Of a stretch of 64,000 bases of DNA, positions 36,503 to 58,575 are shown one piece after another; position 1 is the stretch's first letter, and each line of letters opens with the position of its first letter. The notes under the pieces are model-generated. The model searched no databases. It saw only the letters and a program-made list of their open reading frames with translations, and was not told where the DNA came from. Source of the DNA: Thermoplasmatota archaeon (GTDB lineage Archaea; Thermoplasmatota; Thermoplasmata; Lutacidiplasmatales; JAMCUS01); contig JAMCUS010000019.1 in assembly GCA_023379385.1 (NCBI GenBank), positions 1 to 64,000 of the forward strand, given 5' to 3'. Both the position numbers and the translations under genes were made by a program.

Positions 36503-37159
36503 TCATTCCTCCTCCAGCTTTGACAGCTTCATCTCTGTCAGTACAGGACTTTGATATTTCCACTCCTCTTTCTCCGTTAGCATTTTGTATATCATTCTCG
36601 TGAGTTTGCGCATTGTGGACACATGTGCAAACCTACCTGACCCCTTCCTTTTCTTGATTGAATTGTAGTATTCATTGATGGGTTTATTTCTCAGTATTAT
36701 TGTGTCTACCGCTACAGAGAGTGCCCATCTCGCTGTATGTGCACCTTCCTTTGACATGTGACCTCTCCTATTTATTGTGGATGAATCCTTCATACTGGGT
36801 ATTATTCCAAAAAATGCAGCCAGCTTGTCATTGCTCTCAAACCTGTGAACATCCCCAATATATGATGATAATAGAGATGCAAGGTAATAATCTATCCCAG
36901 GTATGCTCATGAGAAGCTTCACGTCTTCAGATCCCCTTGCTGCTCTCTTTATACCTGTCTCAAGGAGAATGCACTGTTTCTCATAGAATTCCAGTTTATC
37001 CATCATGATCTTGAATATTATATCCTTCTGGTTTCCGAATCTTATCTCATGCATTGCTTTCCTTCTCTTTTCTGAGAAGTTATCAGAGGATTTCGGCAAG
37101 CTATCAAATAGTCCTTCCCTCTTGAGATATCCTATAATAGAATTCTTTGTTGAGGATAC
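36503..37159 (-). pseudogene. IS110-family transposase, C-terminal half only
   Basis: The frame is open from a stop at 37160-37162 to 36503 and encodes about 218 residues. LLMSIPGIDYYLASLLSSYIG followed by KLAAFFGIIPS and RRGHMSKEGAHTARWAL is the Transposase_20 (IS116/IS110/IS902) C-terminal domain with its conserved Ser region. The N-terminal DEDD/RuvC-like domain of about 150 residues is absent, and no ATG precedes the domain (only TTG at 37099). The element is therefore 5'-truncated and inactive. No bridge-RNA-bearing end is recognisable. Confidence 0.82.
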
Positions 37160-39891: not shown

Positions 39892-40025
39892 TGCGGGGAG
39901 CCGGATTTTCAGTATTCCTTTGAACCGGCGAATGCCTACGCAACAGGATTTCTTATCATTAATCTTAAGTCCTGCACCGTTGGTCTATAACCAGGGTATA
40001 TTTAACCAGGCTTAGCTATCCCCGC
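39892..40025 (-). tRNA. tRNA-Leu (anticodon UAA) with three introns
   Basis: 134 bases, 85 after removing three inferred introns. Acceptor GCGGGGA/TCCCCGC, discriminator A. Anticodon stem CAGGA/TCCTG, loop CTTAAGA, variable arm TGC-GTAG-GCA, T stem GCCGG/CCGGC. Intron 1 (22 nt, 39980-40001) lies in the D-loop between positions 21 and 22: central helix GGTT/GACC, inner helix TATA/TATA, bulges AA|A and AA|C. Intron 2 (14 nt, 39950-39963) is at 37/38: central helix CTTA/TAAG. Intron 3 (13 nt, 39906-39918) is at 59/60 in the T-loop: TTCA/TGAA, bulges AA|G and AA|T. Splicing restores loop TTCAAAT. Without the introns no normal cloverleaf forms. The D-loop junction is the least certain, since its outer helix is weak. 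Confidence 0.9.
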
Positions 40026-40431
40026 ATTATGAGATGATAATCCATGAATGGTATCCCTACCATTATCACGACATGCCTTAGATGGATACTCCAGTCTCCT
40101 TTGCACCGTGAAGATCCGTACATTCCGTTATTATTCACGCATCGTTGCCAGCAGTTGATCAGTATCAGGAATGGTTTTATACCGTTTCCAAAGACATTAA
40201 TTTATACAGTTCACGATTTTTATGATGATTGTTTCAGTATATTTCCAAACAACTTTAAAATATAAAATCCTTTTGCAATTTATCTCATTTCCTAAAAATA
40301 TAATTTTTGTTCAGTATTGAAGTTAATTTATGGATAGATAATACAAATCTTTTAATAACTGTTAACCGTTAATTGGAGTTGGTGTTATAACTATCAATAA
40401 TTTCGTATCGTAAGGATATACGGGAGGTTGT
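40026..40431. other. Intergenic region between tRNA-Leu and the pilin gene
   Basis: 406 bp. The left part must contain the tRNA-Leu promoter (minus strand). The right end carries AACTGTTAACCGTTAATT, a partial palindrome near 40357-40374, about 60 bp before the pilin start. A 73-residue plus-strand frame at 40044 lacks any supporting feature. Nothing else was recognised. Confidence 0.5.
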
Positions 40432-58476: not shown

Positions 58477-58575
58477 GCAGGTGTGGTCTAGTGGTAGGAT
58501 CTTAGCCTTCCATTGGGTAAGAAGATAGCTAATAACCCGGGTTCAAATGGTATTCTGAAAATCCCGGCACCTGCA
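58477..58575 (+). tRNA. tRNA-Gly (anticodon UCC) with two introns
   Basis: 99 bases, 71 after removing two inferred 14-nt introns. Acceptor GCAGGTG/CACCTGC, discriminator A. Anticodon stem TTAGC/GCTAA, loop CTTCCA+A. Intron 1 (58513-58526) is at the canonical 37/38 site: central helix CTTC/GAAG, bulges CA|T and AT|A. Intron 2 (58548-58561) is in the T-loop at 59/60: central helix TTCA/TGAA, bulges AA|T and AA|T, outer helix CCGGG/CCCGG. Splicing restores TTCAAAT. The T-loop intron matches that of tRNA-Leu in position, central helix and ending TGAAAA. No CCA is encoded. Confidence 0.92.

Follow-up and report, generated by a model that had tools for sequence, protein, structure and literature searches.

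A tRNA-Leu(UAA) gene best read as carrying three introns, and its sister T-loop introns, in a genome of the Thermoplasmata lineage

tRNA genes with several introns at non-canonical sites are established in Crenarchaeota and Thaumarchaeota (PMC8450103), in Asgard archaea (PMC11291895) and in red algae, among them Cyanidioschyzon (PMC9602550), a wider distribution than the mainly Thermoproteales one that the initial annotation of this DNA had assumed. Reviews describe the euryarchaeal alpha4 and alpha'2 splicing endonucleases as cutting complete bulge-helix-bulge motifs only, and euryarchaeal tRNA genes as having single 37/38 introns (PMC4090602, PMC4033280). Likewise, published work has alpha'2 enzymes that lack a CSL/ASL loop acting on complete bulge-helix-bulge substrates only (PMC4033280, PMC6379350, PMC12397907), and in a structural model of 2025 broad specificity is linked to a loop insertion (PMC12397907). 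The initial annotation knew of no described multi-intron tRNA in Thermoplasmata; our full-text literature search, with subscription papers and preprints outside it, turned up none for Thermoplasmata, Thermoplasmatota, Thermoplasmatales or Lutacidiplasmatales either. Multi-intron tRNAs are already known elsewhere, and the Thermoplasmata instance would be what is new.

The stretch of DNA analysed here (the window, 64,000 nucleotides, from an uncultivated archaeon) holds a locus that is by far best read as a class II tRNA-Leu(UAA) gene with three bulge-helix-bulge-type introns. It occupies positions 39892-40025, exactly where the initial annotation had placed it, on the minus strand, which that annotation had left unstated. 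A plus-strand reading was also tried, but neither the fold nor a manual reading of that strand yielded a sensible tRNA. The gene is laid out as follows.

40025-39892, minus strand: pre-tRNA-Leu(UAA) gene, 134 nt, with G1 at 40025 and A73 at 39892
40002..40025, minus strand: exon 1, positions 1-21, 24 nt, GCGGGGAUAGCUAAGCCUGGUUAA, aligned with the intronless orthologue L040
39980..40001, minus strand: D-loop intron at 21/22, 22 nt, AUAUACCCUGGUUAUAGACCAA, full bulge-helix-bulge
39964..39979, minus strand: exon 2, positions 22-37, with the anticodon UAA, CGGUGCAGGACUUAAG
39950..39963, minus strand: anticodon-loop intron at 37/38, 14 nt, AUUAAUGAUAAGAA, hBH
39919..39949, minus strand: exon 3, positions 38-59 with the variable arm, AUCCUGUUGCGUAGGCAUUCGCCGGUUCAAA
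39906..39918, minus strand: T-loop intron at 59/60, 13 nt, GGAAUACUGAAAA, hBH
39892..39905, minus strand: exon 4, positions 60-73, UCCGGCUCCCCGCA

After excision of the 22, 14 and 13 nt, 85 nt remain, with the anticodon UAA and all stems intact. Alignment with the intronless tRNA-Leu(UAA) of G004, a genome of the same order, is free of gaps, with 81/85 positions identical. ARAGORN finds no gene at the locus in the window and none in the unspliced 134-nt precursor; its plain mode calls tRNA-Leu(taa) only once all three inserts are excised, its intron mode once the D- and T-loop inserts are. Likewise, the locus falls below the threshold of the Rfam tRNA model. The insert lengths given at the outset for 21/22, 37/38 and 59/60 were right, and so was the claim that a proper class II tRNA appears only after their removal. 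Excision restores a normal tRNA, the mark of archaeal tRNA introns, and with three of them the gene counts among multiple-intron tRNA genes (two or more introns). Shifting the junctions by 2-3 nt leaves the product unchanged; those listed were chosen among the possible positions by bulge-helix-bulge register.

In archaeal tRNA introns, a helix forms between four exon bases and four intron bases, each set ending two bases short of a splice site, the 5' one for the exon bases and the 3' one for the intron bases. All three inserts show this central helix with 4/4 pairs (GGUU/GACC in the D-loop, CUUA/UAAG at 37/38 and UUCA/UGAA at 59/60, where UUCA is exon bases 54-57), and their splice sites fall in 3-nt bulges. 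In base-shuffled introns, each taken alone, a 4/4 helix arises at frequencies of 0.066 (D), 0.024 (37/38) and 0.024 (59/60); by itself, the D-loop helix is just mildly unlikely by chance. The D-loop intron has an additional 4-bp inner helix (UAUA/UAUA, read from the sequence) and is the only one to take the strict hBHBh' form. Past its central helix the 37/38 intron has a 7-nt loop and no inner helix, and the 59/60 intron a 6-nt loop and no stable inner helix; as folded here, both are relaxed (hBH) motifs. The initial statement that every insert folds with a 4-bp helix and bulges is borne out for all three, with the amendment that two of them are relaxed for want of a stable inner helix. The hBH form is also accepted for archaeal tRNA introns, and anticodon bases pair with the intron (PMC4090602).

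Some of the inserts might stay in the mature tRNA and enlarge its loops; in favour of this are the variable size of D-loops and a D-loop helix that is not strongly unlikely by chance (0.066). However, the conserved tRNA fold would be broken by a T-loop of 20 nt and an anticodon loop of 21 nt, the intronless orthologues have normal loops, and the inserts show the helix register, so that we regard retention as extremely improbable and continue to read the inserts as introns.

The tRNA-Leu(UAA) gene is not isolated in its genome. T-loop introns were found in 12 tRNA genes, all fitting 59/60 (Leu-UAA, Leu-UAG, Asn, Arg-UCG, Arg-UCU, Ser-UGA, Ser-GCU, Gly-UCC, Gly-CCC, Glu-CUC, Asp and Lys-UUU). 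The 4-bp helix with bases 54-57 is complete in 11/12, and 11/12 are 13-15 nt long. Most of these genes came from or overlap Rfam or BLAST matches and not the intron-shaped pattern, whose T-loop matches are mostly chance (93 versus 72 in a reversed control); Glu-CUC, Asp and Gly-CCC are pattern-only, with an AAAAT end required beforehand, so that two of their four pairs do not count as independent. Furthermore, at least nine tRNA genes have two or more introns (Leu-UAA, Asn, Arg-UCG, Arg-UCU, Gly-UCC, Gly-CCC, Glu-CUC, Asp and Lys-UUU), with three only in Leu-UAA among those found. D-loop introns with a 4/4 helix occur in Thr-CGU, Thr-UGU, Arg-UCU, Lys-UUU and others, and the 37/38 intron of Asn has central pairs at 3/4 only. 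A second multi-intron tRNA gene lies in the window, below both Rfam and ARAGORN detection.

58477..58575, plus strand: tRNA-Gly(UCC) gene
58513-58526, plus strand: its 37/38 intron, 14 nt
58548-58561, plus strand: its T-loop intron at 59/60, 14 nt

The tRNA catalogue was built from searches and is incomplete, as is the assembly (93.8% complete, 45 contigs). The searches did not recover tRNA genes for Gln, His, Thr-GGU, Val-UAC and Arg-CCG, and the automatic catalogue has ambiguous excisions in Arg-CCU, Trp, Tyr and Arg-GCG. We also considered copying from a common ancestor as the way in which the T-loop introns had spread. Pairing with the invariant T-loop UUCA accounts for the 3' end that they share, UGAAAA, and because of this pairing their likeness is weak evidence for copying; the idea was set aside. 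Two repeats came up along the way: an identical 21-mer, GTTCAAATTGCTGTCGAAAAT, at G000:C16:5180, C19:65802 and C26:38865, which is probably a repeated element and not a tRNA, and the same tRNA-Met(CAU) sequence inside contig C20 (L007) and at the very start of contig C39 (L054), probably an assembly overlap.

These data bear on two ways in which the locus could mislead. It could be a decaying pseudogene that has collected insertions while another gene supplies tRNA-Leu(UAA), a view to which the incomplete assembly, the several unrecovered isoacceptors and the want of a clear promoter lend something. A second intact tRNA-Leu(UAA) gene, which the initial annotation had named as grounds for giving up its reading, was searched for, and none was found in the 93.8% complete assembly. 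Decay also sits badly with the intact stems, the exons identical to the orthologue at 81/85 positions, the placing of every insert in a loop and in splicing register, and the occurrence of such introns in 11 further tRNA genes; we judge it very improbable. The locus could also be an artefact of assembly or binning, given the fragmentation into 45 contigs. But the same 108-kb contig has a 23S rRNA gene, the T-loop introns of Gly-UCC and Ser-GCU and the splicing endonuclease gene, and the exons match genomes of the same order, which leaves an artefact barely credible. UUA codons are common in the long ORFs of the window (323/16,476). There is no clear TATA box upstream of the tRNA-Leu(UAA) gene, nor upstream of some intronless tRNA genes of the genome. 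Directly upstream on the minus strand, in the expected promoter place, an imperfect inverted repeat, GATAATGGTA...TACCATTCATGGATTATC, spans 40029-40062, and a nearby ORF at 36503-37099 on the minus strand resembles the C-terminal part of an IS110-type transposase.

Relatives within the order show other states of this gene. In family f3 (L040 of G004 and L041 of G002) tRNA-Leu(UAA) is intronless; the f2 copies that were read contain one intron, at 37/38. From this distribution, the D- and T-loop introns of tRNA-Leu(UAA) would most simply be gains in the window's own lineage. T-loop introns are frequent in f2 too (G001, G011), at 28-35 nt. Most have inner helices of 4-10 bp, and the central pairs often number just 3/4; the automatic parse left two genes without a result. 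By their structure these f2 introns appear to be a second, different form of the same invasion. In the high-GC f2 relative G001, about ten tRNA genes (L287-L296) have T-loop introns of roughly 28-35 nt, mostly with long inner helices, and mostly low Rfam scores. The f2 initiator tRNA-Met (L280, G001:C11) seems to have a D-loop intron.

A search of the genome with PF01974 reveals one endonuclease ORF, of 363 aa and two units, on the same contig as the window. It matches M. jannaschii alpha over 196-358, the second unit aligning end to end, and A. fulgidus alpha'2 over 38-349; the regions of the catalytic Tyr, His and Lys are aligned. The protein would be a fused two-unit enzyme resembling the alpha'2 type, which is a homodimer of chains with two fused N+C units, one of them catalytic. 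Its named relatives are all Thermoplasmata, Methanomassiliicoccales or 'Euryarchaeota' assemblies, and it is from these relatives, not from a tree, that we state the lineage, which bears out the guess of the initial annotation. RtcB is also present in the genome (E 2.7e-170).

The CSL/ASL is an inserted, lysine-bearing loop of 11-18 residues that lies next to the active site, immediately N-terminal to the strand with which the second half of the catalytic unit opens. In this endonuclease the site falls just before the strand LSLLESIYL, and aligned with M. jannaschii and A. fulgidus the protein has no insertion there. The alignment to ARMAN-2, whose loop residues are Y160 and K161 (PMC12397907), restarts at ARMAN-2 residue 170. 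Likewise, the other aligned Thermoplasmata homologues have no such insertion, save for L164, with an insertion further upstream, and L166, which is partial. The enzyme does not qualify as a broad-specificity endonuclease with a CSL/ASL loop. This, together with the incomplete assembly, is what recommends the alternative that the introns are real and that relaxed specificity comes from an undetected enzyme or partner, be it a structural subunit of its own or a component absent from the assembly. Against it, PF01974 has two matches and no third in 59 of the 61 genomes of the order that were searched, one of them 100% complete. We consider such a partner unlikely, though it deserves more weight than either decay or artefact.

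Taken jointly, the observations are very probably explained by a working tRNA-Leu(UAA) gene with three protein-spliced introns, handled most likely by the alpha'2-like endonuclease and RtcB, the D- and T-loop introns probably going first. At each intron four exon bases would pair with four intron bases that stop two short of the 3' splice site, which places both splice sites in three-base bulges, to be cut after the second bulge base. Cutting would most likely be done by the single fused alpha'2-like endonuclease, and RtcB would join the exons. The D- and T-loop introns would probably leave first because they block the contact between D-loop and T-loop; with both loops interrupted, removal of the 37/38 intron is expected as the final step, as in Cyanidioschyzon (PMC9602550). 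Three points count against this joint explanation: the missing clear TATA box, the relaxed form of two of the three introns, given the published restriction of loop-less alpha'2 enzymes, and the D-loop helix, which taken alone is just mildly unlikely by chance.

The relaxed introns pose the harder question for the enzyme. A. fulgidus alpha'2 cuts a loop-type motif at 37/38 when given a full-length precursor (PMC6379350). The T-loop hBH introns would need to be cut without full-length help, which by current models a loop-less alpha'2 should not manage (PMC4033280, PMC12397907). The enzyme may have another way, the perfect 4-bp central helix may be enough, or a partner may have escaped notice. 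On balance we lean slightly towards a large-scale invasion of tRNAs by minimal 59/60 introns in this Thermoplasmata lineage, processed by a loop-less alpha'2-type endonuclease that gained relaxed specificity otherwise. If true, this would go against the rule by which non-canonical introns occur together with CSL/ASL enzymes. The genome combines many non-canonical, relaxed and multiple introns with, as far as its sequence tells, only a loop-less fused enzyme, which makes the rule of enzyme-intron co-evolution directly testable. Furthermore, the thresholds of ARAGORN and Rfam miss many such genes, so that the tRNA sets and the completeness of such genomes are underestimated.

Several described systems share features with this one. 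The Asgard Atabeyarchaeia and Freyarchaeia (PMC11291895) likewise have many non-canonical introns, and there more than half of the tRNA genes have several; their lineage is unrelated to that of the window. The tRNA-Ile(UAU) of Cyanidioschyzon merolae (PMC9602550) has the same combination of D-loop, anticodon-loop and T-loop introns, and removal of the D and T introns is thought to precede that of the anticodon intron. It belongs, however, to a eukaryote with a different endonuclease, and its sites are 12/13, 37/38 and 53/54 in contrast to 21/22, 37/38 and 59/60 here. Korarchaeum cryptofilum (PMC4033280) also pairs a fused alpha2-type enzyme with non-canonical tRNA introns, whereas the enzyme of the window's genome is without an insertion at the corresponding site. 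Pyrobaculum and other Thermoproteales (PMC8450103, PMC4033280) resemble this genome in that a single gene may contain as many as three introns, which occupy both canonical and non-canonical sites and show both bulge-helix-bulge and relaxed motifs. In contrast to the (alpha beta)2 endonucleases with a CSL loop in Crenarchaeota, the enzyme here is a fused two-unit protein without CSL, in a Thermoplasmata lineage, and unlike those of Thermoproteales, the T-loop introns are nearly fixed in position and mostly 13-15 nt long.
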